From Telmatospirillum sp. (GTDB taxonomy: Bacteria > Pseudomonadota > Alphaproteobacteria > Rhodospirillales > Magnetospirillaceae), in assembly GCA_009712185.1 (NCBI GenBank), contig WASQ01000102.1:1-35774 (forward strand): 35,774 nucleotides of DNA. Reading direction: 5' to 3'. Numbering within the stretch: position 1 is the stretch's first letter; every line of letters begins with the position of its first letter. Under the pieces are notes generated by a model, which ran no database searches, was not told the origin of the DNA, and saw only the letters and a program-made list of their open reading frames with translations. Made by a program: the position numbers and the translations under genes. Positions 14,510 through 34,284 of this stretch are shown one piece after another.

Positions 14510-14670
14510 GACTCATACCAGCCTGCGCTCATCGGAACCGATCAGCACAGCCCTCAGGCGTCGGGCGGGTTTCTCCGAAACCCTTGGGCCATCGCTCGCT
14601 ATCCACTCGCGGGCCCGAGGGCGGGCCAGCCAACCGGCGATGAGTCAGCCTCATCGCCGGTTGGTATCAG
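14510..14670 (-). repeat. Dispersed palindromic element, copy 3 (full length)
   Basis: Reverse complement reads CTGATACCAACCGGCGATGAG, then CTCATCGCCGGTTGG, a GGCCCG..CGGGCCC hairpin, and TGAGGGCTGTGCTGATCGGTTCC. This is the same block order as copy 2 at 2844-2998. The 5' palindrome has arms CCAACCGGCGATGAG / CTCATCGCCGGTTGG around GCTGA. It ends at the stop of the nucleotidyltransferase gene and marks the left edge of phosphonate locus A. Confidence 0.7.
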
Positions 14671-15509: not shown

Positions 15510-15595
15510 CCCCCGACTCGCCTCTTGAACCGGTGGTCACAAGGCATGGATTCGCCTTAGATGTACGCATTGACGAGGGGGCCGTCAAATCATTA

Positions 15596-15613
15596 ACATA
15601 CATCGCTGTATGT
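15596..15613. promoter_or_regulatory. 18-bp palindromic operator candidate in the divergent phosphonate promoter region
   Basis: ACATACATCGCTGTATGT: perfect 7-bp arms around TCGC. It lies in the 231-bp AT-rich gap between the divergent nucleotidyltransferase and pepM-fusion genes, the natural place for a repressor site controlling both. Size and symmetry suit a dimeric HTH regulator. The TetR-family gene at 21742 is a candidate, although its own upstream palindrome has a different sequence. Confidence 0.45.
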
Positions 15614-15740
15614 AGATAAAATCCCGCAGATTGGAAGGCAACCGGCGGCGGCTGAGGGGCGCCAGAGGGACTGTCCGTCTTCCCAAAAGGCAATGAAGAG
15701 CGAAACGACCCAAGATTAAAAAAATAAACATCAATAACAT

Positions 15741-17387
15741 ATGGATAAGTCCGTGAGCGAACTCTCCTTAGTAAAACAGGCGAAAAAAACCAAATTTGCG
15801 GCCCTTCGCCACGAAATTTACTCTTCAGACCTTTCCTTCCTGATGGAGGCTCACAGCGGCCTTTCGGCGATGATCGTCGAGGAGGCGGGATTCAAGGGAA
15901 TCTGGGCGTCGGGATTGACGATCTCCGCCAGTCTGGGGTTGCGCGACAGCAATGAGGCATCCTGGACGCAGGTTCTCGACGTGCTGGAATATATGGCGGA
16001 TTCCACCAGTCTGCCCATTCTGGTCGACGGCGATACCGGCTACGGCAATTTCAATAACGTGCGACGCCTTGTCCGCAAGCTGTGCGAACGCCAGATCGGC
16101 GGCGTCTGCATTGAGGACAAGCTGTTCCCCAAGACCAATTCCTTTATCGGGGAGCGCCAGCCGCTCGCCGACGTCGACGAATTCTGCGGCCGCATCAAGG
16201 CCGGCAAGGACAGCCAGACCGACGACGATTTCGTCCTGGTGGCCCGCGTCGAGGCTTTGATCTCGGGCCATGGCATGGAGGAGGCGCTGCGCCGCGCCGA
16301 GGCCTATCGCGCCGCCGGCGCCGATGCCATCCTGATCCATTCGAAGCGTGCCGATGCCGGCGAGATCCTCGATTTTACCCGGCACTGGCAGAACCGCTGC
16401 CCCCTGGTGATCGTCCCGACCATGTATTTCAACACGCCGACCGACACGTTCCGGCAGGCGGGCATCTCCACCATCATCTGGGCCAACCACAATTTGCGCG
16501 CCTCGATCACCGCGATGCGCGAGACCAGCCGGCGGATTCATGACACGCAGTCGCTCTCCGGAACCGAGGGCGGCGTGGCGACGGTCAAGGACATCTTCCA
16601 TCTGGTCGGCAATGCCGAGCTGACGGCCGCCGAAAAGCGTTACCTGCCGGATCGGGCGACCGCCCGCGCCGTGGTGCTGGCCGCGGGCGGCGGCGCACTC
16701 GGCGATCTGACGCGCGACAAGCCGAAATGCATGGTCGACATCCGGGGCCGGTCGCTGCTGCAACGGCTGGTGGGCACGCTCCAGAACGCCGGCATCCGGG
16801 AAATCTCCGTTGTCCGCGGCGAACACAAGGAAGCCGTGGTGCTTCCGGATATTCAGACCATTGACAACGACCGCTACCGCGAGACCGGGGAAGCGTTCTC
16901 CCTGGGATGCGCGCGCAGCCGGATCGACGGCGAAACCGTGGTTGTCTATGGCGATGTCCTGTTCCGCGATTACATCCTGGACGGGGTGATGGCGGCCAAG
17001 GGTGACATCGTGCTGGCGGTCGACGCCAAAAGCGCCATGCTGAAGGCGGAAGGCCAGCCCCGCGACCAGGTTGAGGCCGACCGCCCCTTCTCAGGCAACT
17101 ATCTTGACGACCAGCCCGTCCATCTGGTCCGGATGGCGGAGGATATCGCGCCCGCCGCGGCCCCCGGGGAATGGATCGGCCTCGCCCGGTTCTCGCGCCT
17201 GGGGGCCGTCTGGCTGGCTGAGGAGATCGACGCGCTGGAAGCGGAGGGACTGCTGGAAACGGCCGACATGCCCCTGCTGCTGACCCGCCTTGCCGCGCGT
17301 CATCCGGTGGTGGTGCACTATGTCCTGGGCCACTGGCTTGATGTCGACACCTTGCAGGATGTGGGGGACGCCCTCAACTTCACCTGA
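15741..17387 (+). CDS. pepM: Phosphoenolpyruvate mutase fused to a C-terminal nucleotidyltransferase
   Basis: 548 aa. Residues 20-290 are PEP mutase, which isomerises PEP to phosphonopyruvate, the entry step of almost all C-P bond synthesis. DGDTGYGN (96-103) and the diagnostic [11 protein letters not shown] (125-135) are present, separating it from isocitrate-lyase relatives. Residues 309-548 are a LicC/PntC-like nucleotidyltransferase ending in [14 protein letters not shown], probably making CMP-AEP. Its nucleotide loop reads [19 protein letters not shown] and lacks the Arg expected before Leu, so activity may be altered. No good Shine-Dalgarno precedes the ATG, and the leader is A-rich. 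First gene of the operon; a 230-bp gap follows. Confidence 0.95.
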
Positions 17388-17617
17388 TGCCGTCCACCCC
17401 CGGTCCGGCCGGCGGCAAGATGCCGTCCGGACCGGGGTCCGACCTGACATGCGAGGGATCGCCGGAGACAGACCGTTTCCAAAGACAGGACCTTTTCAAA
17501 GATGGGGCGATTTCCGTCGACGGTCCGCGTAGGATCGCCGATGCCTCCCCACGGGCGAGGAGATGGCTCCATGCCGACTGAAACGGTCGTTCCACCCATT
17601 TCCAAGAGTTTGCCACC
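17388..17617 (+). other. 230-bp structured gap between pepM and ppd
   Basis: It begins with a strong hairpin (see 17398-17437). Further inverted segments follow: GGCGAT (near 17506) with ATCGCC (near 17534) around a CCGTCGACGG palindrome, then CCTC/GAGG and GGAG/CTCC pairs up to about 17575. No ORF or known riboswitch is recognised. It is unusual because the following genes overlap. Confidence 0.45.
17398..17437. terminator. Strong intra-operon hairpin after pepM
   Basis: Perfect 11-bp arms CCCCGGTCCGG (17398-17408) and CCGGACCGGGG (17427-17437). The 18-nt loop carries an inner CGGC/GCCG pair. It starts 10 bp after the pepM stop. With no U tract it may be a partial terminator or mRNA stabiliser that sets pepM expression apart from the downstream genes. 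Confidence 0.55.
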
Positions 17618-18763
17618 ATGATCAAGGCCAGCGATTTCATTGCCGAGGCGGACCGCCAGGGGTTCGACTTCTATACCGGGGTCCCCTGCAGCTTCCTCAC
17701 CCCGCTGATCAACGGCGTCCTGAACGACAGCTCCCTGCATTACGTCGGTGCGACCAGCGAGGGCGAGGCCGTCGCCATCGCCGCAGGGGCGTGGCTCGCC
17801 GGCCGGCGCACCGTGGTGATGTGCCAGAATTCCGGTCTCGGCAACGCCGTCAATCCGTTGACGTCGCTGAACGCCCCGTTCCGCATCCCGACGCTGTTCA
17901 TCACCACATGGCGGGGGCAACCCGGGATCCCGGACGAGCCCCAGCATGTCGTGATGGGGACCATCACCCAGGACCTGCTGCGCCTGATCGGTCTCGAACA
18001 GGACCGGTTCCCGACCGACATATCCGCCCTGTCCGCCACCCTGGCGGCCGCCAGGACGTCGATGGACGCCCGCTCGCTTCCCTTCGCCCTGGTGATGGAA
18101 AAAGACAGCGTCGCGGCCGAGCCGCTGACAGCCCTGCCCTTGCCGAGACCGCCGGCCGGGCGCCGGGCGACGCATCCCGGATCGGCGGGTGACCTGCCCG
18201 CGCGCGTCCAGGTCCTGGAACGGTTCCTGGCGACGGTCTCCGACGATTGCGCCGTGATCGCGACCACCGGCAAATGCGGCCGGGAACTGTTCACACTGGC
18301 CGACCGGCCGCAGCACCTCTATCAGGTCGGTTCGATGGGGGGCGCCAGCGCCATGGGCCTGGGTGTCGCCCTCAACACGGCGAGGCCGGTGGTGGTGCTC
18401 GACGGCGACGGCGCGGCCCTGATGAAGATGGGCAACTTTGCCACCATCGGCGCCTATCGCCCCGGCAATCTGGTCCATATCCTGCTCGACAACGGCGTCC
18501 ATGATTCGACGGGCGGACAGGCGACGGTGTCGGCGTCGGTTGATTTCGCCGCGATCGCGCTTGCCACCGGCTATCAATACGCCACCACCTGCCATACGCT
18601 GGCGGAGGTCGATGATGCTTTGACGGAGGTCGCGACCAGCCCGAAACCGGCCCTGATCCATGTCCGGGTGGCGCCGGGATCGCTTGCCAAGCTGGGGCGT
18701 CCCACGGTGACGCCTCCGGACGTCGCCCGCCGGTTCCAGTCATTCCTTGCCGCCCACCCATGA
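17618..18763 (+). CDS. ppd: Phosphonopyruvate decarboxylase
   Basis: 381-aa thiamine-diphosphate enzyme converting phosphonopyruvate to phosphonoacetaldehyde, the irreversible step that drives PEP mutase forward. The TPP-activating Glu region is ATSEGEAVAIAAG (E48/E50). The TPP/Mg motif is GDGAALMKMGN (263-273) followed by DNGVHDSTGGQ (291-301), diagnostic for Ppd against sulfopyruvate decarboxylase. It is the only Ppd in the window, so both PEP mutases probably depend on it. Its stop overlaps the next start by 4 bp (ATGA). Confidence 0.96.
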   Translation: MIKASDFIAEADRQGFDFYTGVPCSFLTPLINGVLNDSSLHYVGATSEGEAVAIAAGAWLAGRRTVVMCQNSGLGNAVNPLTSLNAPFRIPTLFITTWRGQPGIPDEPQHVVMGTITQDLLRLIGLEQDRFPTDISALSATLAAARTSMDARSLPFALVMEKDSVAAEPLTALPLPRPPAGRRATHPGSAGDLPARVQVLERFLATVSDDCAVIATTGKCGRELFTLADRPQHLYQVGSMGGASAMGLGVALNTARPVVVLDGDGAALMKMGNFATIGAYRPGNLVHILLDNGVHDSTGGQATVSASVDFAAIALATGYQYATTCHTLAEVDDALTEVATSPKPALIHVRVAPGSLAKLGRPTVTPPDVARRFQSFLAAHP

Positions 18764-19752
18764 AAACATCCGCGATTGTCGCCACCCTGATCGGCCTCGC
18801 GATCGCCGCCACCCTGATCGCGACCAACGGCTATGCCGAAATCGGACAGGCCGTCATGATGGCCGGCTGGGGAATCCTGTGGGTGATCGCCCTGCATTTT
18901 CCCCAGATGCTGTTCTCCAGCATGGCCTGGAGGGCCGTGGTTCCCGGTGACCGGCTGCCGGGGGTCCCGGCGTTCATCGGCCTCCGGCTGATCCGCGAGG
19001 GGGTCAACGCCCTGTTGCCGGTCGCGCAGATCGGCGGCGAGTTCGTCGCCGCACGCCTGATGGGATTCGGCGGCATCTCTCTGGGGGCGGCGGGGGCCAG
19101 CGTCACCGTCGACCTCACGCTGGAGATGTTGAGCCAGGTGATTTTCACCCTGCTGGGCCTCGGACTTCTGCTGGTCGGTTCCGGCAGTCCGGAGATCACC
19201 GAATGGGTCCTGAAAGGCAGCCTGCTGGCCCTGCTGCTGGTGGCGGTCTTCATCCTGGCGCAGCGCTGGGGCCTGTTGCGGCTGCTGGAGCGCGGCCTTC
19301 TGAAACTGGCGGAAACCCAGAAATGGAAAGGCCTTGAGGATGTGGCCGGCCTGCATCAGGCGATCGTCGATCTCTATCGGTCACCCCGGCGGCTGGCCTG
19401 GGGCACGGCCCACCACACCATGTCCTGGCTTCTGGGCGGATTGGAGGTATGGGCGGCGCTCTGGGTGGTCGGCCACCCCGTCGGCTGGCGCGAGGCGCTG
19501 ATCATCGAAAGCCTGGGGCAGGCGTTCCGTTCCCTCGGGTTCGCGGTGCCGGGCGCCCTTGGCGTGCAGGAAGGCGGACTGATCCTGGTGGCCGGCCTGC
19601 TGGGCTTCGGCCCCCAGGCCGCGATCGAGCTGTCTTTGTTGAAACGCGTCCGGGAACTGGCCCTGGGGCTTCCCGGACTGGCGGCATGGCATTGGATGGA
19701 GCGGCGGAGCAGCAGAACGCGCGCCGACGCTCAGATGGAGAGCAGACCATGA
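18760..19752 (+). CDS. HpnL-like integral membrane protein (lysylphosphatidylglycerol synthase TM / flippase-like family)
   Basis: 330-aa polytopic inner-membrane protein with about eight helices. The blocks RLIREGVNALLPVAQIGGEFVAARLM (near 80-105), PGALGVQEGGLILVAGLLG and SLLKRVRELALGLPGL are typical of the HpnL subgroup of the UPF0104/LPG-synthase-TM family. HpnL is known beside hopanoid genes, but no hopanoid gene is present here. In this operon a role in translocating or handling a phosphonolipid is reasonable inference. It is coupled on both sides by 4-bp overlaps. Confidence 0.85.
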   Translation: MKTSAIVATLIGLAIAATLIATNGYAEIGQAVMMAGWGILWVIALHFPQMLFSSMAWRAVVPGDRLPGVPAFIGLRLIREGVNALLPVAQIGGEFVAARLMGFGGISLGAAGASVTVDLTLEMLSQVIFTLLGLGLLLVGSGSPEITEWVLKGSLLALLLVAVFILAQRWGLLRLLERGLLKLAETQKWKGLEDVAGLHQAIVDLYRSPRRLAWGTAHHTMSWLLGGLEVWAALWVVGHPVGWREALIIESLGQAFRSLGFAVPGALGVQEGGLILVAGLLGFGPQAAIELSLLKRVRELALGLPGLAAWHWMERRSSRTRADAQMESRP

Positions 19753-20417
19753 GCGGCGACACCTGGACCCACAGACTGGCGCGCCCCTTCGTGCGCCCGC
19801 TGATCGGCACCGGCGTCACACCCAACCATATCACCACGGCACGGCTGGTCACCGGCCTGGCCGCCGCCGCCGCGCTGCTGCCCGGTACCCCGGCCTGGAC
19901 ATGGTGGGCCGGATGGTTATGGTTGTTTTCCGCCTTTCTGGATCGCGCCGACGGCGAACTGGCCCGTCTCGGGGACATGGCCTCGCCGGAAGGCCGCGCC
20001 TGGGATTGTCTGGTCGACAATATCGTCAATCCGGCATTTTTTGTCGCCATCGGGGTGGGGCTGCGCCATAGCTGGCTGGGCGGCTGGTCGATCCCGCTGG
20101 GCCTCGTCTCCGGCGTTTCGCTGTTTCTGTGCGGCTATTGGTCGGAACTGCTGGAAAGCCGGCAGAACTACGCCGTCAAAGCCTATTCCGGCGCCTTCGG
20201 CTTCGACCCCGACGATCTTCTTTATCTTTTCGCGCCACTCGCTTGGCTTGGCTGGCTGGCCCCGATTCTGGTCGGCGCCGCCATCGGGGCCACCATTGTG
20301 GCGATCCTGACCGGCTGGCGCCTGATGCGCCTTGGCACCGAAGAGACGACAGAAGCCCTGTCCGAGACGCCGCCCACACCCGCCACAGCCGATCCTTCCC
20401 GGAGCACCTCGCCATGA
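19749..20417 (+). CDS. CDP-alcohol phosphatidyltransferase family protein (candidate phosphonoalcohol/aminoalkylphosphonate transferase)
   Basis: 222-aa membrane enzyme with several hydrophobic helices. The family signature D-x2-DG-x2-AR-x8-G-x3-D-x3-D is complete in DRADGELARLGD...EGRAWDCLVD (about residues 63-88). The family moves a phospho-alcohol between CMP and a lipid or small alcohol. Here CMP-AEP as donor and diacylglycerol or another lipid alcohol as acceptor would give a phosphonolipid. The ATG at 19749 was chosen because it makes the ATGA overlap with the previous gene and starts before the family-conserved TPNHIT. A longer reading would run through the upstream gene. It has a Thr/Pro/Ser-rich C-terminal tail. 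Confidence 0.9.
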   Translation: MSGDTWTHRLARPFVRPLIGTGVTPNHITTARLVTGLAAAAALLPGTPAWTWWAGWLWLFSAFLDRADGELARLGDMASPEGRAWDCLVDNIVNPAFFVAIGVGLRHSWLGGWSIPLGLVSGVSLFLCGYWSELLESRQNYAVKAYSGAFGFDPDDLLYLFAPLAWLGWLAPILVGAAIGATIVAILTGWRLMRLGTEETTEALSETPPTPATADPSRSTSP

Positions 20418-21550
20418 ACGACCGATCCCCCTCCCCGCCGATTCTCCTGACCCCCGGCCCGCTGACGACCGACCCGGCCGTGCGGCAGGCCATGCAGCGG
20501 GACTGGGGATCCCGCGACACCGCCTTCATCGCCCTGACCACCGAATTGCGCCGGCGCCTGCTCGATGTCGCCAACGGCCGGGCAAGCCACGCCGCGGTCC
20601 CCCTCCAGGGCAGCGGCACCTTCATCGTCGAAGCGACCATCGGCACCCTGATCGGACCGGACGACCGGCTTCTGGTCCTGATCAACGGCGCCTATGGCGA
20701 AAGAATGCTGTCCATCGCCGGGCGCCTGGGGAAATCGGCCACCGCCCTGCGCTGGCCGGAAAACCAGGCTGTCGTTCCGGCGGAGGTCGAAGCCCGCCTG
20801 CGGGCCGACCCGGCCATCACCCATGTGGCGATCGTTCATTGCGAAACCACGACCGGTCTCCTCAATCCGATGGAGGAGGTGGCCACCGTCGCCGCCCGTC
20901 ATGGCAAGGCGTTCCTGGTCGACGCCATGAGCAGCTTCGGATCCCTGCCGATCGACGTCGCCGCAACGCCGATTACCGCGGTGATGGCCTCATCCAACAA
21001 ATGCCTGGAAGGCGTTCCCGGACTGGGGTTCTCCCTGATCGAGAAACGGGCGCTGGAAGCCGCCGCCGGCAACAATCCGTCGCTGGCCTTCGATCTTTGC
21101 GCCCAGAACAAGGGATTCGAGACGAACGGTCAGTGGCGGTTCACGCCACCGGTCCAGGTCGTGGCCGCGCTGGTGGAGGCGCTGCGCCTGCTTGAGGCGG
21201 AAGGCGGCACCGCGGCCCGGCTTGCCCGCTACCGGGCGAACTGCAAGGTGCTGTGCGACGGAATGGCCGCGTTGGGTTTCTCGCTTTACCTGCCCCCGTC
21301 GCTCCAGGCGCCCATCATCGCCACCTTTCATCAGCCGGCGGCTCCCTGGTTCGCGTTCAAGGCCTTCTACGACCGTCTGGCAGAGCGCGGATTTCTGATC
21401 TACCCCGGCAAGCTCAGCAAGGCCGATACCTTCCGGATCGGCTGCATCGGAGCCCTGGTTCCCGCCGATTTCGACCGCCTTCTGGTCGCGATCCGGGCCA
21501 TCCGGGACGAACTCTCGGCACCCGTCCGGGAGGTGGCCGACGCGTCCTGA
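20414..21550 (+). CDS. phnW: 2-aminoethylphosphonate-pyruvate transaminase
   Basis: 378-aa class V PLP aminotransferase interconverting phosphonoacetaldehyde plus alanine with AEP plus pyruvate. It begins LLTPGPLTTDPAVRQAM, the standard PhnW start. It has QGSGTF (65-70), VDAMSSFG with the PLP-ring Asp (D170), and the Schiff-base Lys in SSNKCLEGVPG (K196). Although PhnW is often catabolic, co-transcription with pepM and ppd points to the synthetic direction. No PhnX phosphonatase is present. The ATG at 20414 overlaps the previous stop (ATGA); a longer frame back to 20129 reads through that gene. Confidence 0.95.
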   Translation: MNDRSPSPPILLTPGPLTTDPAVRQAMQRDWGSRDTAFIALTTELRRRLLDVANGRASHAAVPLQGSGTFIVEATIGTLIGPDDRLLVLINGAYGERMLSIAGRLGKSATALRWPENQAVVPAEVEARLRADPAITHVAIVHCETTTGLLNPMEEVATVAARHGKAFLVDAMSSFGSLPIDVAATPITAVMASSNKCLEGVPGLGFSLIEKRALEAAAGNNPSLAFDLCAQNKGFETNGQWRFTPPVQVVAALVEALRLLEAEGGTAARLARYRANCKVLCDGMAALGFSLYLPPSLQAPIIATFHQPAAPWFAFKAFYDRLAERGFLIYPGKLSKADTFRIGCIGALVPADFDRLLVAIRAIRDELSAPVREVADAS

Positions 21551-26136: not shown

Positions 26137-26982
26137 TCAGGCAATGGAAAAGCCGACGATCGCAATTCCGGTGCTGACCATGCACGCGGCCAGCAGACGC
26201 CGGCGGCCGCATTCCTCGTGAAAGGCGGCAATGCCGATCAGGGTGCCGAAGACCGCGCTGGTCTCGCGCAATGCCGTCACCGCGCCGAGGGACAGGCGCG
26301 TCATTGCCCATAACGAAATGGCAAAGCCGCCGATTGCCACGATTCCGGCTGCCGCCCCCCTCAGGACAATAAGGGGATCGCGATGCAGAAACCCAGGTCC
26401 CCGCAGCCCGACGCCACCCAGCACCATTCCGGTTCCGGTCAGGATGTGAAGCCAGCCGGCGAATCCGAGAGCGGTGTGGGCGGCCCTGACCCCGACCCCC
26501 CCGAAAAAGCTGTAGACGCCGATCAGCAATCCCGTCGCAACAGCCATCGCGACCGGCCGCCCGCGGAACCGCCCGGACGCCCCGGCGGCCAGGACCATGA
26601 TCCCGATGGAGATCAACACGATTCCCGCCAATCTCCAGGGGCCCGGATCTTCATCGATGAAGATCATGCTGAAGGCGACCACGATCAGGGGCGAGGATCC
26701 CCGCGCGATCGGGTAGATCTGGCTGAGGTCGCCGAACCGGTAGGCATTGGCCAGCAACATGTTGGACGCCACATTGGCGACAGCCGTGATCACCAGGAAA
26801 GGCCAGCATTCCGGGGCGGGAATCGGAGAGACCAGGGCGGCAACGGCTCCGAACACGAACCCGGTGAGGTAGATCCCCACCGCCATCAGAAAGGGATCGC
26901 CGCTTTTTTTCAGGAAGGCATTCCACAGGGAATGACCGATGGCCGTGAACAGGACGATGAACGAAATCGCAATGTCGGACAA
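26137..26982 (-). CDS. EamA/DMT-family transporter
   Basis: 281 aa with about ten hydrophobic helices in two repeat halves, as in drug/metabolite transporters. The first half includes ANVASNMLLANAYRFGDLSQIYPIARGSSPLIV and the second ALSLGAVTALRETSAVFGTLIGIAAFHE; the R-x-S/T-x-(P/V) placements at the helix ends are typical of EamA pairs. It is 45 bp downstream of the alcohol dehydrogenase gene, so it probably shares that operon and may export a phosphonate intermediate or product. Substrate not predictable. Confidence 0.88.
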   Translation of the reverse strand: MSDIAISFIVLFTAIGHSLWNAFLKKSGDPFLMAVGIYLTGFVFGAVAALVSPIPAPECWPFLVITAVANVASNMLLANAYRFGDLSQIYPIARGSSPLIVVAFSMIFIDEDPGPWRLAGIVLISIGIMVLAAGASGRFRGRPVAMAVATGLLIGVYSFFGGVGVRAAHTALGFAGWLHILTGTGMVLGGVGLRGPGFLHRDPLIVLRGAAAGIVAIGGFAISLWAMTRLSLGAVTALRETSAVFGTLIGIAAFHEECGRRRLLAACMVSTGIAIVGFSIA

Positions 26983-27027
26983 ACCTTCCTCCCTGCGGCG
27001 GATCGCGGTATCGGGTGACCGCCCGGA

Positions 27028-28128
27028 TCAGTCGAAAAGGGCGGGGACGTCGACCGACTGTGCGGGCATCGGCGAATTGGCGAACCGGCTCCGGTCATAG
27101 GCGCGGGTCTGGTCGTCCGCGTCGGTCCGGCTGATCCCCAGCGCCGCGAGCGTCGATGGAAGACCCACGCCCTCCACCAGCCGGGTCCAGACCGGGGCGA
27201 CATCCGAAGGGCCGGCGCTTCCCAGCACCGACAGCACGAAGCCATAGGCGTCGCTCCAGGGTCTCAGACCGGAACTGTTCGACAGGCTGCGCCCGAATTG
27301 TTCCAGATACCGCCCCATCGAAAGGGCCACGGCATGTCCGTGGGCAAGGCCGTACCGATAGGACAGGGGGTAGGACAGGGCATGGGGGATCGTTGTTCTG
27401 GTCACCGCGATCGCGCGCCCTCCCAGATTGGCGGCCAGCGCCATTCGCCGCATGGATCGCGCCTCGCGCGCCATGGCCCCTTGCAGCCCCCCCATTGCCA
27501 GGATCAGGCCCCGGCGGGCGTCGCGGCCGCTTGCCGGCGTCGTCCGCCGGGACAACAGCGATTCGATGCACTGGCAGAGAACATCGAGCCCCGCCGCCGC
27601 CGCCGCCGGGCGCGGGACCGCCGCCATCAGCCGATAGTCGACGACGGCGACGTCGGGCAACAGGGTGGGGTGGTCCAGCGAATGTTTCCGGCCGTGAAGA
27701 TAGACAACCGCGAAAGGCGTGCTTTCGCTGCCGGAACCGGCGGTCGTCGGGACGGCGACCAGGGGAATCCGGCGCGCCAGAGACTGTCCGCCCTCCACCG
27801 CCGTTTTGAGGGTGTCGGGGTCAGCGGGCCAGGTCGCCAGCATCTTCCCGATGTCAAGGACCCGTCCCCCGCCGATCGCGACGACACATCCCGGCTCGGC
27901 CGGATCCGCGGTTAACCGTATGCGGCGGAAGTCGTCGAATTCGGGAACACCCCCGGGACTGAGGACAACCTCCACGGCGCCGGACAGGGACGCGATGAGA
28001 TGAATGACCTCCGGACGCCTCGAAGATGAGTCACCCAGTATTACCAGCGTTCTCCCCACGCCTTTAACATCGATCACCGTTTTTGAAAGAAAATCATCGT
28101 CCATCTCCCCGATAAAGCGTCGCTGCAT
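27028..28128 (-). CDS. Iron-containing alcohol dehydrogenase, probable phosphonoacetaldehyde reductase
   Basis: 366 aa, group III Fe-ADH. Visible are the nucleotide-binding AIGGGRVLDIGK (near 88-99), VPTTAGSGSESTPFAVVY, the metal region DVLCQCIESLLS, and PHALSYPLSYRYGLAHGHAVAL with metal-ligand His. This last block is like that in phosphonoacetaldehyde reductases (PhpC, FomC, DhpG), which make 2-hydroxyethylphosphonate. The neighbouring Fom1-like and Fom3-like genes support this. The first eight residues are not conserved-looking, so MDDDFLSK could be the true start. It follows the dioxygenase gene by 37 bp. Confidence 0.88.
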   Translation of the reverse strand: MQRRFIGEMDDDFLSKTVIDVKGVGRTLVILGDSSSRRPEVIHLIASLSGAVEVVLSPGGVPEFDDFRRIRLTADPAEPGCVVAIGGGRVLDIGKMLATWPADPDTLKTAVEGGQSLARRIPLVAVPTTAGSGSESTPFAVVYLHGRKHSLDHPTLLPDVAVVDYRLMAAVPRPAAAAAGLDVLCQCIESLLSRRTTPASGRDARRGLILAMGGLQGAMAREARSMRRMALAANLGGRAIAVTRTTIPHALSYPLSYRYGLAHGHAVALSMGRYLEQFGRSLSNSSGLRPWSDAYGFVLSVLGSAGPSDVAPVWTRLVEGVGLPSTLAALGISRTDADDQTRAYDRSRFANSPMPAQSVDVPALFD

Positions 28129-28165
28129 AATGACACCTCATCTCGATATCCGGGACTCTCTGACG

Positions 28166-28927
28166 CTACTGAAAGGAAAAGACTCTGAATTCGAAAATAT
28201 TTTTTTCTTTCTTTTCAGAGAAACTACTTTCCTTCCTGGCGTAATACGCCTCCCTTGCGGCTCCGGCCCGTGCCGGCGCGAAGGTGAACAGCAGATGCAG
28301 GGCGTCCTCGGATGTCCGGTTGGGCAGGGTGCGGTGGGGCGCCTCGCTGTCCAGCACGATGGCGTCGCCAAGTCCGGCGCTGACGGATATCCGGTCCATG
28401 CCGTCGAAAAAGGCGTCGCTCATGCGCCCCTTGTCATTGGGGAACCGGCCGTCCCTGTGAACGCCGCCGACCACCTCGAACCCGCCGTGCGCGCGATCAC
28501 TGGTTCCCAGAAACACGCCGATCGAGACGAAATGATCGGCGAACTCCTCCCATCCGGCCGCCGAATCCTGATGGGGTGAATAGCCGTTGCTCCCGGCATA
28601 GCGGATATTCAGCTTGTCCTTGAACAGAGCCACGTCCTCGCCCAGATAGCGGGCCGCGCATTCCTTCAGACGCCGGCCGATGCCGGTCTCGCCCAGACTT
28701 GGAAGCGCTTCCCAAATGCGCTCCACCCTCGCCAGATGCCGCCCCCCGCCGGCGTCGACATCGACGTAATACATGCAGTCCGGGTGCAGATCCGGCGTCG
28801 CCGACAGCCCGGCCAACTCCTCGCGAACCCGACGGACCTCCGCCGGTGTCAACAGGCCTGGCAGGAACGACCAGCCGGCCGCCCTGGCGCCTTCCCAGAA
28901 GCCATCATCACAATGGTCGTTCGTCAT
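28166..28927 (-). CDS. Phytanoyl-CoA dioxygenase (PhyH) family Fe(II)/2-oxoglutarate oxygenase
   Basis: Numbered from the GTG at 28936, the fold is PhyH-type double-stranded beta-helix. Fe ligands are H122 and D124 in SPHQD and H201 in APHRTLPN, with a 2-oxoglutarate Arg nearby (R207). KDKLNIRYAGSNGYSPHQD is the usual pre-ligand strand. Related enzymes in phosphonate metabolism are PhnY (AEP C1-hydroxylase) and DhpA (2-hydroxyethylphosphonate C1-hydroxylase), so C1 hydroxylation of a phosphonate is the best guess. The ATG at 28927 is chosen (253 aa), with AAGGGG upstream. The last 28 residues (RKESSFSEKKEKNIFEFRVFSFQ region) come from AT-rich DNA and look like a run-on tail. Confidence 0.85.
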   Translation of the reverse strand: MTNDHCDDGFWEGARAAGWSFLPGLLTPAEVRRVREELAGLSATPDLHPDCMYYVDVDAGGGRHLARVERIWEALPSLGETGIGRRLKECAARYLGEDVALFKDKLNIRYAGSNGYSPHQDSAAGWEEFADHFVSIGVFLGTSDRAHGGFEVVGGVHRDGRFPNDKGRMSDAFFDGMDRISVSAGLGDAIVLDSEAPHRTLPNRTSEDALHLLFTFAPARAGAAREAYYARKESSFSEKKEKNIFEFRVFSFQ

Positions 28928-29063
28928 AGCCGCCACACCCCTTAAGCGATATGTTTAAATTAAGATAAACTCGCATTACGTGTGGTCTTGCGCATTACAG
29001 TTTAATGACTGTTTTGTTACATCTCCGTTGCGGAAGCGGGACTCTACCGTTAGGAGCAATGAG
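28928..29063. promoter_or_regulatory. Divergent promoter region of locus B
   Basis: 136-bp AT-rich gap between the dioxygenase and PssA-like genes. It holds an imperfect palindrome GTTTA-N8-TAAAC (28953-28970) and a direct repeat CGCATTAC at 28972-28979 and 28991-28998, 19 bp apart (about two helical turns). This suggests a regulator site between the two arms. -35/-10 elements cannot be assigned with confidence. Confidence 0.45.
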
Positions 29064-29702
29064 ATGCAAGCTAAAAAACAGATACTTTCAAATATAACAC
29101 CACTGCATGCATATATTGATGCAGCGAATATCATCACTTGTCTAAATATTAATATCGGTGTTTTTTCAATTTTATATTCTTTCTTGCATAAAATTACATT
29201 GGCATCTATTATGATAGTTGCAGCGGCGGCGATAGATCATCTTGATGGATGGGTCGCCCGGCGGTATGGCAGTGCAAACAAGGCGGCCAGGCAGTTTGGC
29301 GGACACCTCGACACACTGGCGGATGAACTCAACTTTTGCGTCAGTCCGGCCGCCGCCCTCCTGGCGGTGACCGGCGCCGAAACCGGGGCCATCGTGGCCG
29401 CCGCCGCTTTCATCGTCGCCGGACTGTGCCGATTGGCGCATTTCGAGATTGTCGGGGCAGTGGGAGGACGGATCTACAGCGGCCTGCCGACAACCTACGC
29501 CGGCTATGTCACCGCATACGTTCTGACGCTTCTCGATGGAGGGGCGATAGGAAACGAAATTGCAGTAACATTATTTATATTATTGGCATTTCTCGAAATA
29601 TCAAAAATAAAAGTAAAAAAACCGTCGTATTTTATCACGGTCGGCGTCTTGCCATTGTCGTTCGCTGTCTTTTGTTTTCTGTTTATTTCTATGACGCCTT
29701 AG
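29064..29702 (+). CDS. CDP-alcohol phosphatidyltransferase, phosphatidylserine-synthase (PssA)-like
   Basis: 212-aa membrane protein with about six helices. The signature is DHLDGWVARRYGSANKAARQ then FGGHLDTLADELNF (about residues 58-93): D-x2-DG-x2-AR with 12 residues before G-x3-D-x3-D, and LDTLAD..F as in type II PssA. It could therefore use CDP-diacylglycerol plus an alcohol (serine, or a hydroxyalkylphosphonate) rather than CMP-phosphonate plus diacylglycerol. AGGAG lies 7 bp before the ATG at 29064. The N- and C-terminal thirds are strikingly AT-rich (ATA, AAA, TTA codons), unlike the centre and the flanking genes, which points to recent acquisition. Confidence 0.85.
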   Translation: MQAKKQILSNITPLHAYIDAANIITCLNINIGVFSILYSFLHKITLASIMIVAAAAIDHLDGWVARRYGSANKAARQFGGHLDTLADELNFCVSPAAALLAVTGAETGAIVAAAAFIVAGLCRLAHFEIVGAVGGRIYSGLPTTYAGYVTAYVLTLLDGGAIGNEIAVTLFILLAFLEISKIKVKKPSYFITVGVLPLSFAVFCFLFISMTP

Positions 29703-29742
29703 ACCAACCAGTGATGAGATCGACTCACTGCCAGTTGGTATT
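29703..29742 (+). repeat. Dispersed palindromic element, copy 4 (5' palindrome only)
   Basis: ACCAACCAGTGATGAG and CTCACTGCCAGTTGGTAT flank ATCGA. This is the end palindrome of copies 2 and 3 (CCAACCGGCGATGAG..CTCATCGCCGGTTGG) with a few changes and without the remaining ~110 bp. It sits between the PssA-like and radical SAM genes. Confidence 0.6.
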
Positions 29743-29757
29743 CCTGGAGGACAGAGC

Positions 29758-31338
29758 ATGGTGATGCGCGTTGACACTTTGCGTACGCTTTACATCGATC
29801 CGGACGCCGCGCCCACCGTTCGCTACAAGGATGTCGTCCGGTCGAACACGCGCCGTGCCGATCGCCGCATCCAGCGCGTCATGCTGATTTCGCCGCCGGC
29901 CACGCTTTACAAAGGAGACCTGCCGCGATGCACCTATCCGCTGGGTCTCGGCTATATCGCGGCGGTCCTGGAACAGAACGACTATGACGTGGCCATTCTC
30001 GACTGTCTCGTCGAAGGGTACTATCAGACCACCCCGGTCGAGGACGATCCCAACTTCGTCACCTATGGCATCCAGCGCGATGAAATCGCCCGGCGCATCG
30101 CCCTTTTCGGACCCGATATCGTCGGCGTCTCGAGCATCTTTTCGAACCAGTCCGACGCCGTGGCGGAAGTCTTCGCCGCTGTGAGACAGGCCGCTCCCTC
30201 GGCCCTGGTGGCGACGGGCGGCGCCCATGCACGGTATTTTCCACACAATTACATCGAAGATTATGACATCGACGCGGTTTTCCTGAGTGAATCGGAGGTG
30301 ACATTCCTCCAATACGTGGAACATCTGAATGGAGCCGGAGACATCGACGGGATCGACGGCATCATCGCGCGCACCACCGGCGGAAGCCTGGTCGAAAACT
30401 CCGACATGGCGCTGGTCCGCAACAAAAGCCGGACCGACCAGGGGTTCTGGGCCGAAATTGACGCCATCCCCTTTCCCGCCTGGCATCTCTACAATATGGA
30501 GGAATATTTCAGGATCGGCGCCTACCAGTCCCCCTATACGGTTGGAAACCGTGTGGCCCAGATCTACACCAGCCGGGGCTGCACGGCCAAATGCACCTTC
30601 TGCACGACAACCAATTTCTGGGGCGGCAAACTGCGCCGCCGCAGCCCCGAGAACGTTCTCGAGGAACTGTCGCGGCTGAAGGACCGCTATGGCATCGACG
30701 AATTCCACATCCAGGACGACAACATCACCAACGACCGGCAGCATGCCAAATTCCTGTTCCGGCGACTGACCGAACTTCAACTTCCCTGGTGCACGCCGCA
30801 GGGCACCGCACTGTGGCGGATGGATGAGGAACTGCTGGACCTGATGGCGGAGTCGGGGTGTTACCAGATCACCTTCGCCATCGAAAGCGGCAGCCAGCGT
30901 GTCCTCAATGATCTGATCCGCAAGCCGCTCGATCTCGACAAAACACGACATCTTATCGGCTACGCCCGGTCGATCGGGCTTTCGGTGCATGGCTTCTTCA
31001 TCGTCGGCATGCCGCCGATGTTCGGGAACGCCGGGGAAACCATCGACGAGATGTGGCAGACCTACCGGTTTGCCGGGGAGGCCGGCTTCCACAGCGCGTC
31101 CTTCTTCGCGGCGACGCCGATCGTGGGATCGGTCTTATTGTCCGAATGCATGCGCCAGGGTTTCATCGCCAGGGATACGCCGCTCTACCGGATGTCCTAC
31201 AAGCAAGGGTTGATCAATGTTCCCGGTCTCTGGCAGGGCAGCGACATCGCGTCCCTGGCGGCCCGGTTCAATCGTGATTTCAATCAGGCCAATCAGGCGC
31301 GGAAAGGTCGGCGGGCCTGGTCGGCCGCTCAATATTGA
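29758..31338 (+). CDS. Cobalamin-dependent radical SAM enzyme, Fom3-like C-methyltransferase candidate
   Basis: 526 aa. An N-terminal B12-binding domain (about 40-195; LPRCTYPLGLGYIAAVLE, DIVGVSSIFSNQSDAV, TGGAHARYF) is followed by a radical SAM core with CTAKCTFC (C275, C279, C282) and GIDEFHIQDDNIT. A C-terminal extension contains KQGLINVPGLW. The B12-plus-radical-SAM architecture is class B methyltransferase type. Fom3 methylates C2 of CMP-2-hydroxyethylphosphonate in fosfomycin biosynthesis, and the next gene encodes a Fom1-like enzyme that would make that substrate. GGAGG precedes the ATG; the third-codon ATG is an alternative. Other class B activities cannot be excluded without alignment. 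Confidence 0.88.
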   Translation: MVMRVDTLRTLYIDPDAAPTVRYKDVVRSNTRRADRRIQRVMLISPPATLYKGDLPRCTYPLGLGYIAAVLEQNDYDVAILDCLVEGYYQTTPVEDDPNFVTYGIQRDEIARRIALFGPDIVGVSSIFSNQSDAVAEVFAAVRQAAPSALVATGGAHARYFPHNYIEDYDIDAVFLSESEVTFLQYVEHLNGAGDIDGIDGIIARTTGGSLVENSDMALVRNKSRTDQGFWAEIDAIPFPAWHLYNMEEYFRIGAYQSPYTVGNRVAQIYTSRGCTAKCTFCTTTNFWGGKLRRRSPENVLEELSRLKDRYGIDEFHIQDDNITNDRQHAKFLFRRLTELQLPWCTPQGTALWRMDEELLDLMAESGCYQITFAIESGSQRVLNDLIRKPLDLDKTRHLIGYARSIGLSVHGFFIVGMPPMFGNAGETIDEMWQTYRFAGEAGFHSASFFAATPIVGSVLLSECMRQGFIARDTPLYRMSYKQGLINVPGLWQGSDIASLAARFNRDFNQANQARKGRRAWSAAQY

Positions 31339-31348
31339 GGTGGTCGCC

Positions 31349-32650
31349 ATGGACGAAACCATCGTTTATGTCGGTATGGTCGGAGACATGTTGCATGCGG
31401 GACACATCAATGTGTTGGCCAAGGCCCGCACCCTGGGGCGCGTGGTCGTCGGAGTCCTGACCGACGACGCGGTGATCGGGTATAAACGAACGCCGTTCAT
31501 GAAGTTCGCCGACCGCGTGCGCGTGGTCGAAAATCTGGCCGGTGTCGACCGGGTCGTTCCGCAAAGAACCCACAGCTACGCGGAAAATCTCAAGGAACTG
31601 CGCCCCCACTATGTCGTCCATGGCGATGATTGGCGCTATGGCGATCAGGTGGCGGCCGTCCGCCGCGAAGTCATCGAGGTGCTTCAGGAATGGGGCGGCG
31701 AACTGATCGAGGTCCCCTACACGCCGGGAGTGTCGTCCACCCTCATTCATCAGGCCTTCGAGGAGGAGGGGGTCATGGCGCGCGGCCGGCAGGGACGGCT
31801 GCGCCATCTTCTGGAGGGCAAGCCCTGCATCCGGATCATGGAGGCGCACAGCGGTCTTGCCGCATTGATCAGCTATCGCGCGCGTTATCAGGAAAAAGTC
31901 TTCGATGCGCTGTGGCAAAGCAGCTTCACGGACGCCACCTTGCGCGCCAAGCCGGACGTCGAGATCGTTGACCATGGCGCCCGCCTGGCGACGATCAACG
32001 AGATTTTCGACGCGGCCCCGCTGCCGCTGATCTACGACGGCGACACCGGCGGCTTTCCGGAAAAAGTCCACCAGTTGACCAAATCGCTGGACCGGGCCGG
32101 CGTCTCCGCCCTGTGCCTGGAGGACAAGGCCGGCGCGAAGCGGAATTCTCTTCTGGGCACCGAGGTGGCGCAGACCCAGGCGACGATCCCCGAATTCTGC
32201 GAACGCATCGGCGCGGCGAAACGGGCGGTTTCCCATGGCGATTTCATGTTTTTTGCCAGGATCGAGAGTTTCATCCTGGGGGGCACGCTGCGCGACGCCC
32301 TGACCCGGGCGGAAGCCTATATCGATGCCGGCGCGGACGGCATCCTGATCCATTCCATCGCCAAAACCGCGGACGAGGTCGTCGGCTTCGCCTGCGCCCT
32401 GCGCAAAACCGGCAGCCGGGTCCCGATCCTGGTGGTTCCGACGACCTACGGCAACACCCATGAAAGCGTGCTGGCGGACGCGGGAATCAACGGCATCGTC
32501 TATGCCAATCATCTTCTCCGCGCCGCCTATCTGCCGATGGTTCAGACCGCCAACAACATCCTGCGCAAAGGTGTATCGGAGGACGAGGAGCTATCGGCGA
32601 TGCTGGCCTCGCCCAAGGACATCCTGAGCCTGATTCCGATCGCGAAATAG
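31349..32650 (+). CDS. fom1: Bifunctional cytidylyltransferase-PEP mutase, Fom1-like
   Basis: 433 aa. Residues 1-140 are a TagD/GCT-type cytidylyltransferase: HAGH (16-19), KRTPFMKFADRVRVVENL, HGDDW (91-95) and GVSSTLI (127-133), the ISSTxI-type motif. Residues 160-433 are PEP mutase with IMEAHSGLAAL, DGDTGG (230-235) and EDKAGAKRNS (258-267). This domain order is that of Streptomyces Fom1, which makes phosphonopyruvate and later CMP-2-hydroxyethylphosphonate. It is the reverse of the locus A fusion and uses an unrelated nucleotidyltransferase fold. The ATG at 31349 lies 10 bp after the radical SAM stop; a longer frame from 31217 overlaps that gene. The gene symbol is by analogy. Confidence 0.93.
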   Translation: MDETIVYVGMVGDMLHAGHINVLAKARTLGRVVVGVLTDDAVIGYKRTPFMKFADRVRVVENLAGVDRVVPQRTHSYAENLKELRPHYVVHGDDWRYGDQVAAVRREVIEVLQEWGGELIEVPYTPGVSSTLIHQAFEEEGVMARGRQGRLRHLLEGKPCIRIMEAHSGLAALISYRARYQEKVFDALWQSSFTDATLRAKPDVEIVDHGARLATINEIFDAAPLPLIYDGDTGGFPEKVHQLTKSLDRAGVSALCLEDKAGAKRNSLLGTEVAQTQATIPEFCERIGAAKRAVSHGDFMFFARIESFILGGTLRDALTRAEAYIDAGADGILIHSIAKTADEVVGFACALRKTGSRVPILVVPTTYGNTHESVLADAGINGIVYANHLLRAAYLPMVQTANNILRKGVSEDEELSAMLASPKDILSLIPIAK

Positions 32651-32934: not shown

Positions 32935-34284
32935 GTGACAGATCCCCTTTTCTCAGCCATTTCCGAATCCGCGCCCTGGTGGCGCGTTCGGCCGGGAACA
33001 TCGCTGACCGTCGAAGGCGGCGCCCCTCTCGCCGGCACCTACCGGATCAGCGGCGCCAAGAACGCGGTCCTGCCGCTGATGGTGGCGACCCTCCTGTCGC
33101 CCCGCCCCGTCACCCTGAACAATGTTCCGGCGAGCCTCGACGTTGCCGTTCTGGCCGCGCTGCTGCGGCGGCTGGGGGCAACCCTGGACTGGCGCGAGGA
33201 TGTGTCCGGCCTCAGCCTCACCGTGACGGCCGCAGCCATCCACGCGGAACGGATCGAGCGGGATCTTGTGACCCGGATGCGCGCTTCCGTTCTGCTGCTG
33301 GGGGCCCTGCTGGCCCGCTCGGGCGAGGCCGACCTTCCCCTGCCGGGCGGGGACGCCATCGGTTTGCGCGGAATCGACTATCATGTGAGCGGACTGCGGG
33401 CCATGGGCGCCGACATCACCCTGTCGCACGGAACGGTCCGGGCCAGGGCCGCTGCCGGCCTCAAAGGGGCCGACATCCGCCTGCCCGGTCCGTCGGTGGG
33501 AGCGACCGAAAATCTGATGCTGGCAGCCGTCGGCGCAAGCGGCACCACAACGATCCGCAACGCGGCCCAGGAGCCGGAGATCACCGACCTCGCCCATTGC
33601 CTGACCGCCATGGGCGCGACCATCTCGGGAATCGGCAGCGACACCCTGGTCATCGCGGGCGGGCGCTCTCTGGAGGGCGCCGTCCACCGCGTGATGCCGG
33701 ACCGGATCGAGTTCGGCACCCTGGCGGCGGCGGCGGCCATCACCGGCGGCGAACTGACGCTTCTGCCGGGCGTGACCGGCCTCGGGGACGCCACCGGCCT
33801 TCTGGGGGCGGCGGACCCTGTGTTCCGCCAGGCGGGCATCGATCTCAGGCCCGTCGCCGGCGGAGTGGTGGCCGGACGGGCGGACGCCGGTCTGGCCGGC
33901 GTCGATATCGTCACCCAGCCCTTTCCCGGATTCCCGACCGACCTTCAGGCGCCGGCAATGGCCTTGCTGGCGATCGCGGAGGGGGCCGGATCGATCACCG
34001 AGACGATCTTCGAACATCGTTTCCGGCATGTTGACGAGCTGCGGAAAATGGGCGCCAACATCACGGTCCGCGGACGCACGGCCCTCGTGCGGGGCGTTCC
34101 GCGCCTTGCCGGCGCCCATGTGGAGGGCAGCGACGTACGCGCCGCCGCCGCGCTGTTGATCGCGGGTCTTGGCGCCGCCGGGACGACGGTTCTCGGCGGA
34201 CTGGACCATCTCGACCGGGGGTACGACCGGATCGCCGAGAAGCTTTCGGCCGTTGGCGCCCGTATCCGCCGGACGGAGGAGTGA
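32935..34284 (+). CDS. murA: UDP-N-acetylglucosamine 1-carboxyvinyltransferase (MurA) with catalytic Cys replaced by Asp
   Basis: 449-aa EPSP-synthase-fold enzyme transferring enolpyruvate from PEP to UDP-GlcNAc, the first committed peptidoglycan step. Conserved: SGAKNAVLPL (K42, N43), TRMRAS, FPTDLQA with the general-base Asp, and SDVRAAAALL..HLDRGYDRIAEKL. The active-site loop reads PGGDAIGLRGIDYH: D140 stands where the fosfomycin-alkylated Cys (Cys115 in E. coli) should be, encoded by GAC at 33352-33354, while the Arg, Asp and His after it are kept. Asp-type MurA is active and fosfomycin-insensitive in other bacteria. An N-terminal extension of about 20 residues is unusual. The start is GTG with only a weak ribosome site. 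It is not beside hisG/hisD, where I expect many alphaproteobacterial housekeeping copies, so it is possibly a second, resistant copy. Confidence 0.93.
   Translation: MTDPLFSAISESAPWWRVRPGTSLTVEGGAPLAGTYRISGAKNAVLPLMVATLLSPRPVTLNNVPASLDVAVLAALLRRLGATLDWREDVSGLSLTVTAAAIHAERIERDLVTRMRASVLLLGALLARSGEADLPLPGGDAIGLRGIDYHVSGLRAMGADITLSHGTVRARAAAGLKGADIRLPGPSVGATENLMLAAVGASGTTTIRNAAQEPEITDLAHCLTAMGATISGIGSDTLVIAGGRSLEGAVHRVMPDRIEFGTLAAAAAITGGELTLLPGVTGLGDATGLLGAADPVFRQAGIDLRPVAGGVVAGRADAGLAGVDIVTQPFPGFPTDLQAPAMALLAIAEGAGSITETIFEHRFRHVDELRKMGANITVRGRTALVRGVPRLAGAHVEGSDVRAAAALLIAGLGAAGTTVLGGLDHLDRGYDRIAEKLSAVGARIRRTEE

Follow-up and report, generated by a model that had tools for sequence, protein, structure and literature searches.

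A Fom3-containing locus of Telmatospirillum sp. that may direct a fosfomycin-like compound through a new route

Gene content of locus B

The window analysed here is a stretch of 35,774 nucleotides from Telmatospirillum sp. (contig WASQ01000102.1). The cytochrome b of this genome is 67% identical to that of Azospirillum, a distant relative. A group of six genes, named locus B, occupies positions 26137-32650, and all six were confirmed at the positions and in the families given in the original prediction, so that its description of the gene content holds. The genes are listed in Table 1 together with the phosphonopyruvate decarboxylase gene of locus A and a gene for an accessory MurA, unmentioned in that prediction, which begins 284 bases downstream of locus B. 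The start positions 29064 and 31349 were judged from alignments and are given as likely. A homolog of the iron-dependent alcohol dehydrogenase (Fe-ADH; at least 80 bits) was present in 72 of 80 Fom1-type loci, and 76 of the 80 carry a phosphonopyruvate decarboxylase. None was seen in locus B, which is probably supplied with phosphonoacetaldehyde by the decarboxylase of locus A.

Table 1. Genes of locus B and two associated genes in the window.
Feature	Position	Strand	Evidence
Phosphonopyruvate decarboxylase of locus A	17618..18763	+	TIGR03297, 420 bits (cut-off 312.5)
EamA-family membrane transporter, possible exporter	26137..26982	-	Pfam EamA, 51 bits; NCBIfam TIGR03340 (phosphonate-utilisation-associated membrane protein), 125 bits, below cut-off 288
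Fe-ADH, candidate phosphonoacetaldehyde reductase (FomC-like step)	27028..28128	-	Best NCBIfam model TIGR03405 (Phn_Fe-ADH), 146 bits, below cut-off 424
PhyH-family Fe(II)/2-oxoglutarate oxygenase, candidate HppE replacement or C1 hydroxylase	28166..28936	-	Pfam PhyH
PssA-like CDP-alcohol phosphotransferase	ORF 28980-29702, likely start 29064	+	PF01066
Fom3 ortholog, B12-dependent radical SAM C-methyltransferase	29758..31338	+	Identity to Fom3 and tree
Fom1-type cytidylyltransferase-PEP mutase fusion	ORF 31217-32650, likely start 31349	+	Structure matches
Accessory MurA (Asp where E. coli MurA has Cys115), candidate gene for self-resistance	32935..34284	+	TIGR01072 and alignment

The radical SAM protein and the cytidylyltransferase-PEP mutase fusion

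The fosfomycin cluster of Streptomyces viridochromogenes NRRL 3413 (L151) encodes a Fom3 to which the radical SAM protein is 59% identical (646 bits), or 58% over the whole alignment. The cluster motif CxxxCxxC is present in both proteins, and a B12-binding domain was also found in the window protein. In a tree of 53 rows, the two proteins form a pair supported at 100/100, and the path from the window protein to Fom3 is 0.72, compared to at least 2.45 to every other row. By these comparisons the protein is a Fom3 ortholog, as had been claimed, and its predicted activity is the C-methylation of CMP-2-hydroxyethylphosphonate at C2. The proposed placement among class B radical SAM enzymes thus came out with Fom3, in a tree that held one Fom3 and had neither PhpK nor Sden_1168 sequences among its rows. 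The best curated match of the protein was NF038361, the model of the Sden_1168 P-methyltransferase, with 319 bits and a cut-off of 575. This match is no argument against Fom3, because the Streptomyces Fom3 itself scores just 293 bits; owing to this lower score and to the pairing in the tree, a Sden_1168-type identity was rejected in favour of Fom3.

Among 317 genomes of the order, Fom3 was found in this genome only, none was found in the four other genomes of the genus, and the best other match among 398 genomes of the phylum was 37% identical. A search of 396 Actinomycetota genomes (E 1e-60) retrieved the query's own genome alone, and L151 was the one locus with Fom3 among the 80 Fom1-type loci. 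The best match listed in a tblastn search of plasmids with the radical SAM protein had just 29% identity. In titles and abstracts of the open-access literature, Fom3 outside fosfomycin synthesis was not reported.

The cytidylyltransferase half of the fusion protein matched 5X3D, a Fom1 domain (E 2.9e-48), and the PepM half matched a PepM structure (E 3.7e-39) and contains the motif EDKxxxxxNS. With its N-terminal cytidylyltransferase joined to such a PepM, the protein is of Fom1 type as judged from these matches, which bears out the domain order originally described. The possibility that the fusion is remarkable by itself was rejected, since at least 572 relatives were confirmed and a domain of this type is borne by 23.6% of PepM proteins, according to passages of PMC6697681.

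Search for the fosfomycin finishing enzymes and the proposed route to CMP-2-hydroxypropylphosphonate

In the whole assembly, the best match to a single HppE query, which recovered its own Streptomyces gene at E 4.9e-128, had an E value of 0.023 and was confined to residues 6-77. A single FomD query, run without a positive control, gave no match in the assembly. Because one sequence was used for each, a diverged HppE or FomD could be missed. The absence of both genes, originally noted for the window, therefore extends to the assembly at this sensitivity, and the genome search that had been suggested retrieved neither of them. Moreover, no FomA or FomB was noticed among the annotated genes of the window. 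Two components that would be expected of a Streptomyces-type fosfomycin cluster were thus not found, and because of this the ending of the pathway would differ from that of fosfomycin.

The assembly consists of 153 contigs, and this fragmentation, together with the single query sequences, would be compatible with a normal fosfomycin pathway in which HppE and FomD have fallen into assembly gaps or are too diverged to be detected. We consider this very improbable, as the completeness of the assembly is listed as 100, the HppE search yielded the short stretch mentioned and nothing else, and the locus has a PhyH oxygenase instead.

Since a Fom3 ortholog and a Fom1-type fusion are present, and HppE and FomD were not found, the path up to CMP-2-hydroxypropylphosphonate is well supported at the sequence level, and the route originally predicted from phosphonoacetaldehyde to this intermediate was retained. 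PepM and the decarboxylase of locus A would form phosphonoacetaldehyde, which the Fe-ADH would reduce to 2-hydroxyethylphosphonate; the cytidylyltransferase would turn this product into its CMP ester, and Fom3 would C-methylate the ester to CMP-(S)-2-hydroxypropylphosphonate.

The PhyH oxygenase

The AlphaFold model of the PhyH protein (mean pLDDT 80.5) has a PhyH fold, and the best 50 matches in a structure search with this model were PhyH-type and related 2-oxoglutarate dioxygenases. The iron ligands His122, Asp124 and His201 are unchanged in three aligned sequences. Judged from its HxD...H ligands and modelled fold, the protein is a 2-oxoglutarate oxygenase. The closest relative found outside, with 41% identity, is the PhyH protein of L093, a Fom1-type locus of Arenicellales. 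Both this gene and the best plasmid relative, from R. rhizogenes, are neighboured by LicD and cytidylyltransferase genes with Fom3 absent, which suggests headgroup tailoring. The surroundings of a second plasmid relative are without any phosphonate gene.

The route as first proposed assigned no role to the PhyH protein, although a 2-oxoglutarate cyclase, FfnD, is known and works in the synthesis of the phosphonate antibiotic fosfonochlorin, as described in parts of PMC10764440. We propose that the PhyH protein would most likely oxidise C1 and close an epoxide in the manner of FfnD, replacing HppE. Hydroxylation is the usual outcome in the PhyH family, and among curated models the NCBIfam methylphosphonate hydroxylase fits the window protein and two of its relatives best, in all cases below the cut-off (97 bits for the window protein, cut-off 500). 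The enzyme might on these grounds hydroxylate C1 with no ring being formed; the product would then be of the 1,2-dihydroxypropylphosphonate type, either free or as an ester, and would have another target. Such a pathway gives no account of the Asp-115 MurA described below and seems to us improbable. Ring closure and hydroxylation by a PhyH enzyme cannot be told apart from the sequence.

The CDP-alcohol transferase

The transferase scored 69-80 bits with three CDP-alcohol transferases of rhizobial PepM operons, compared to 32 bits with the best of the four other family members that this genome encodes outside the window. By eye, the sequence contains a CDP-alcohol transferase motif whose middle gap is longer, and the score of 84 bits for TIGR00473 is below the cut-off of 107 for PssA, the CDP-diacylglycerol serine transferase. 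Eight records matched the protein and seven neighbourhoods were opened, four of which place a relative in an operon with PepM, aminotransferase and cytidylyltransferase genes. This operon context supports a transfer step after CMP-2-hydroxypropylphosphonate, as had been predicted, and the enzyme would move the phosphonate onto an alcohol, in place of simple CMP removal. To our knowledge, no CDP-alcohol transferase is used in known fosfomycin synthesis.

On a Priestia megaterium plasmid, a relative of the transferase adjoins a plasmid-borne DXR; no PepM motif was found in the 28 kb around it. The GC3 of the transferase gene is 0.50, compared to 0.75-0.85 in 20 other genes measured, and because of this foreign composition the operon may be a mosaic.

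The accessory MurA

Fosfomycin is in clinical use, and its target is MurA. The accessory MurA scored 471 bits with the murA model TIGR01072 (cut-off 393). Aligned to MurA of E. coli K-12, it has Asp in place of the fosfomycin-binding Cys115 and keeps nine more positions (K22, N23, R91, R120, D305, R331, D369, R371 and R397). Cys is found at 115 in the genome's other MurA and in the 29 copies read in relatives. At E 1e-60, two MurA copies were found in this genome, one in 36 of 40 relatives and none in the remaining four. The exact peptide PGGDAIG occurs inside a MurA in one of 369 sampled genomes of the phylum, namely this one; other Asp-type proteins would escape this search, as it sees the exact form only. 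No MurA was found in the stretches examined around 80 other Fom1-type loci, 47 of which had 10 kb on both sides, and no terminator-like site was found on the + strand between the PepM and MurA genes.

Of 51 MurAs compared, 4 have Asp-115 but occur without Fom3, one of them being a second copy carried by the Arenicellales genome of L093. As this copy lies approximately 161 kb from the Fom1-type cluster of that genome, in an unrelated-looking neighbourhood (glutamine synthetase- and amidotransferase-like genes, by eye), it was not counted as support. In the MurA tree, the window copy groups weakly with other Asp-115 proteins (82/76 and 82/78, the bootstrap not having settled). Because the grouping is weak and long branches meet, no origin is claimed.

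According to parts of PMC4790336, the Cys115Asp variant of E. coli MurA retains activity and is insensitive to fosfomycin, and the resistance genes of producers usually lie inside their clusters. With Asp-115 and with the catalytic and phosphonate-binding residues kept, the accessory MurA is by its residues of the fosfomycin-insensitive type and a candidate self-resistance gene. Fom3 and an insensitive-type target occur together within 5 kb, an indication that the product is directed at MurA. We propose that this product, free or esterified, would target MurA and that the second MurA would protect the cell, target replacement standing in for the FomA and FomB kinases. MurA-based self-resistance in a producer was not reported in titles and abstracts of the open-access literature.

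The transferase relatives in PepM operons, and likewise the LicD genes beside the PhyH relatives in L093 and R. rhizogenes, could also speak for CMP-2-hydroxypropylphosphonate, perhaps hydroxylated by PhyH, being put on a lipid or polymer by the CDP-alcohol enzyme, the MurA being coincidental or guarding against the fosfomycin of others. It also fits this explanation that most of the capacity of bacteria for phosphonates is believed to be devoted to cell surfaces (PMC6697681). We regard it as rather unlikely, because it leaves unexplained an accessory MurA with the insensitive residue so close to the Fom1/Fom3 operon. Fom3, Fom1-type activation, the failure to find HppE and FomD in the assembly and the transfer context all stand from the original prediction, whereas a pathway to a headgroup only does not account for the Asp-115 MurA.

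Comparison with known systems and significance

Like the L151 cluster, locus B has a Fom1-type fusion, Fom3 and an Fe-ADH. L151 has HTH-cupin and DUF402 genes beside Fom3, which we take to be HppE and FomD, whereas the window has the PhyH, CDP-alcohol transferase, EamA and Asp-115 MurA genes, in a genome where HppE and FomD were not found. In the literature consulted (PMC6697681, PMC12723261, PMC8158854, PMC10764440, PMC4790336 and PMC9381506), the reported fosfomycin producers are Streptomyces and Pseudomonas syringae, the last enzymes of the Streptomyces route are FomD and the epoxidase Fom4 (HppE), and self-protection is by kinases, which in Streptomyces are reported to be FomA and FomB (PMC4790336). 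L093 of Arenicellales combines the closest Fom1-type fusion found (57%) with PhyH and Fe-ADH; unlike locus B, its 20 kb show no Fom3, CDP-alcohol transferase or MurA, and it has LicD, an aminotransferase and a decarboxylase of its own. A CMP-activated phosphonate and a CDP-alcohol transferase of PepM-operon type are shared with phosphonyl-tailoring (Pnt) operons, which combine PepM and a cytidylyltransferase with either a CDP-alcohol transferase or LicD, but the incomplete gene tables of four rhizobial PepM operons list no radical SAM gene. Finally, the likeness to the fungal fosfonochlorin pathway, with its 2-oxoglutarate oxacyclase FfnD, is an analogy: a 2-oxoglutarate iron enzyme accompanies a phosphonate in both. 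We know of no Fom3 in the fungal pathway.

The sequences show family membership, Fom3 orthology, gene order, the absence of HppE and FomD at the sensitivity used and the Asp-115 MurA; from these we infer all the reactions assigned to this strain, the formation of an epoxide, the acceptor, the self-resistance role and the product. We put at about even the chances that locus B and the MurA gene form a phosphonate pathway of fosfomycin type whose ending departs from the standard one, comprising a PhyH-derived epoxide, the transferase, a MurA-directed product and an insensitive MurA. A more specific form is put forward tentatively, namely an HppE-independent fosfomycin route of an alphaproteobacterium, in which Fom3 would be followed by PhnY/FfnD-like epoxidation and by a transferase releasing the product as an ester of an alcohol or a lipid, which would be a masked epoxyphosphonate, with an insensitive MurA and not kinases for protection.

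If the lipid explanation were true, Fom3 would serve a new purpose, namely the making of a methylated phosphonate headgroup. If the preferred reading is true, the bacterium, which may produce a fosfomycin-like compound, would have a new fosfomycin-type route involving another oxygenase, a transferase and replacement of the target, possibly leading to a masked (esterified) epoxyphosphonate, and the accessory MurA would be usable as a marker for MurA-directed pathways in other genomes.

Identity and distribution of the radical SAM protein

Judged by its sequence, the B12 radical SAM protein of locus B is Fom3. As the original prediction supposed, it falls in the Fom3 clade: it matches the Fom3 of Streptomyces viridochromogenes NRRL 3413 (locus L151) with 59% identity and 646 bits (58% identity over the whole alignment), and the two pair at 100/100 in a 53-member tree of B12 radical SAM proteins, PhpK and Sden_1168 themselves lying outside the sampling. 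The L151 radical SAM gene is adjoined by HTH-cupin (HppE-type) and DUF402 (FomD-type) genes, and NRRL 3413 is a fosfomycin producer. The best curated fit of the window protein, the Sden_1168 P-methyltransferase model (319 bits, cut-off 575), was set aside as uninformative because the Streptomyces Fom3 itself scores 293 on this model.

Fom3 is rare. Among 317 genomes of the order it was found in the window genome only, two others having matches of 36-38% identity, and none was found in four other genomes of the genus. The next-best match in 398 genomes of the phylum has 37% identity, and in 396 Actinomycetota an E value of 1e-60 was reached by the query's own genome alone. More distant radical SAM proteins beside other phosphonate genes are included in the table.

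The absence of hppE and fomD, noted earlier for the window, extends to the genome as searched (153 contigs; listed completeness 100%, contamination 3.08%). The best HppE match (E 0.023) covers only residues 6-77, the helix-turn-helix region, with a query that recovered its own gene at E 4.9e-128; a FomD query used without a positive control gave no match.

Organization of the locus and its flanks

Two phosphonate loci are present in the window, and the two gene groups of locus B are divergent. Locus A encodes an aminoethylphosphonate pathway that has nucleotidyltransferases of its own and an HpnL-type membrane protein, and it presumably supplies the decarboxylase missing from locus B. Its CDP-alcohol transferase, the second in the window, is unrelated to the PssA-like one and has a further copy in the genome at 58% identity. 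Phosphonate-use genes lie approximately 1.8 to 12.8 kb to the right of the window, so that synthesis and breakdown genes are near each other on this contig; phnM and phnD are identified by their curated models, the remaining C-P lyase and transport genes were recognised by eye alone, and two frames taken as phnI and phnJ have no match among the NCBIfam models.

Positions of the loci discussed
Locus	Position	Strand	Content
Locus A	14667-21550		NTP transferase, PepM with C-terminal nucleotidyltransferase, phosphonopyruvate decarboxylase, HpnL-type membrane protein, CDP-alcohol transferase, 2-aminoethylphosphonate transaminase
Locus B, first group	within 26137-32650	-	EamA, Fe-ADH, PhyH
Locus B, second group	within 26137-32650	+	PssA-like transferase, radical SAM protein, cytidylyltransferase-PepM
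Window MurA	32935-34284	+	accessory MurA
Right flank (L207)	~37.5-48.6 kb of contig		phosphonate-use genes
L085	5259-11457		radical SAM protein (36% identical to window Fom3) immediately before aminoethylphosphonate operon: PepM, decarboxylase, transaminase, nucleotidyltransferase
L084	12415-16000		stand-alone Fom1-type cytidylyltransferase, decarboxylase, Fe-ADH, adjoining other B12 radical SAM (23-24% identical to window Fom3 in L084 and L088; two genomes, one genus)
L088	15941-19899		as L084
L267, Rhizobium rhizogenes plasmid	4265-12021		cytidylyltransferase, PhyH, LicD in a row; two VOC-family proteins upstream, predicted tetracycline-resistance gene downstream
L263, Arenicellales	9304-10611		Asp-115 second MurA; neighbours resemble glutamine synthetases and amidotransferases (by eye)
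L272/L274, Priestia megaterium pBM700	143159-146805		unannotated CDP-alcohol transferase between aminotransferase (nucleotidyltransferase-like start) and DXR

Comparison with other Fom1-type loci

The cytidylyltransferase half of the window fusion matches the Fom1 domain 5X3D (E 2.9e-48). By itself such a fusion is ordinary; Rice et al. 2019 give a Fom1-type domain fused to 23.6% of PepM proteins (PMC6697681). Scanning species-representative genomes with a cytidylyltransferase alignment confirmed at least 572 relatives, and 80 loci were kept, 47 of them with a complete 10 kb flank on each side. Among the matches listed, a decarboxylase occurs in 76 of the 80 and Fe-ADH in 72, Fom3 in L151 alone and a close PhyH only in the Arenicellales locus L093; the window-type PssA-like transferase, EamA and MurA occur in none at the bit thresholds used. 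On these counts, the combination in locus B was therefore not seen elsewhere.

An accessory MurA of fosfomycin-insensitive type

The window MurA (471 bits on the curated murA model, cut-off 393) begins 284 bases beyond locus B, and no plus-strand terminator-like site was found between it and the cytidylyltransferase-PepM gene. The second MurA of the genome, on contig C100 beside genes resembling hisG and hisD by eye, is 48% identical to it; at E 1e-60, 36 of 40 relatives have exactly one copy and 4 have none. Compared with E. coli K-12 MurA, the window copy keeps K22, N23, R91, R120, D305, R331, D369, R371 and R397 and has Asp at the Cys115 position, where the genome's other MurA and the 29 relatives' copies compared have Cys. 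According to a review (PMC4790336), Cys115 is bound by fosfomycin, the E. coli Cys115Asp enzyme is fully active and fosfomycin-insensitive, and producers usually keep resistance genes within their clusters, the known fosfomycin producers relying on kinases.

The exact peptide PGGDAIG, a search that Asp-type MurAs with other neighbouring residues escape, occurs in 13 of 369 genomes of the phylum, inside an open frame of at least 60 codons at 7 of the 13 loci and in a MurA only in the window. Asp-115 was also found in 4 of 22 MurAs from 19 of 20 chosen genomes (15 from among the 80 kept loci, three additional Fom1-type genomes and two with radical SAM relatives), which counts against uniqueness. 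Three of the carriers are MAGs (two actinobacterial, one from Gemmatimonadales); the fourth is the L093 genome, in a second copy that lies approximately 161 kb from its Fom1-type cluster if the two contigs, identical in length, are one.

The oxygenase and the transferase

The window PhyH carries the HxD...H ligands. Its AlphaFold model, built from three sequences, has a PhyH fold (mean pLDDT 80.5), PhyH-type dioxygenases are nearest in structure searches, and the best curated model, methylphosphonate hydroxylase, is far below cut-off. HppE works at C1 of 2-hydroxypropylphosphonate. Since neither HppE nor FomD was found, PhyH would be the strongest candidate to close the ring, and the PssA-like CDP-alcohol transferase the strongest to deal with the CMP ester. 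A review (PMC10764440) likens to the HppE reaction that of FfnD, a 2-oxoglutarate cyclase in fosfonochlorin synthesis, although co-substrates and stereochemistry differ. Against a ring-closing role, the L093 PhyH stands beside LicD without Fom3. PhyH matched 38 plasmid records, two of whose neighbourhoods were opened: the best relative, in R. rhizogenes, is flanked by a cytidylyltransferase and LicD, and the Rhizobium etli one has no phosphonate gene in its surroundings. The settings in L093 and R. rhizogenes suggest that a CMP-activated compound is tailored ahead of transfer.

The transferase looks like a phosphonate-operon type from sequence comparison, in line with the predicted transfer step. 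It scores 69-80 bits to three rhizobial PepM-operon CDP-alcohol transferases and at best 32 bits to four other family members of this genome outside the window (six PF01066 matches in the genome); in a small tree its place beside the rhizobial proteins has no firm support. Its plasmid relatives are mostly rhizobial (8 records matched, 7 opened): four neighbourhoods are PepM-aminotransferase-cytidylyltransferase-CDP-alcohol transferase operons, one has a cytidylyltransferase and no PepM listed in ~10 kb, one is the Priestia locus and one lacks annotation. Operons of this kind lie on Sinorhizobium and Mesorhizobium plasmids (L265, L266, L269, L270), and some add further tailoring genes (methyltransferase, MFS transporter, dioxygenase). 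Plasmid pBM700, where 28 kb of sequence contained no PepM motif, is possibly a parallel case of a transferase with a duplicated antibiotic target, DXR being the fosmidomycin target. The GC3 of the window gene is 0.50, against 0.75-0.85 in 20 other genes measured, and marks it as foreign.

The product of locus B

Our best inference is that locus B makes CMP-2-hydroxypropylphosphonate, and to this point the chemistry of the original prediction stands; its ending, transfer of the headgroup to a lipid or polymer, is now one of two live readings. Two fosfomycin-tied features, Fom3 and an additional, insensitive-type target, lie within 5 kb, and we therefore think that the product acts on MurA. This has weak points: the tie between MurA and locus B is read from their adjacency, a transferase is unexplained in an antibiotic pathway, and the PhyH contexts of L093 and R. 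rhizogenes speak for tailoring before transfer.
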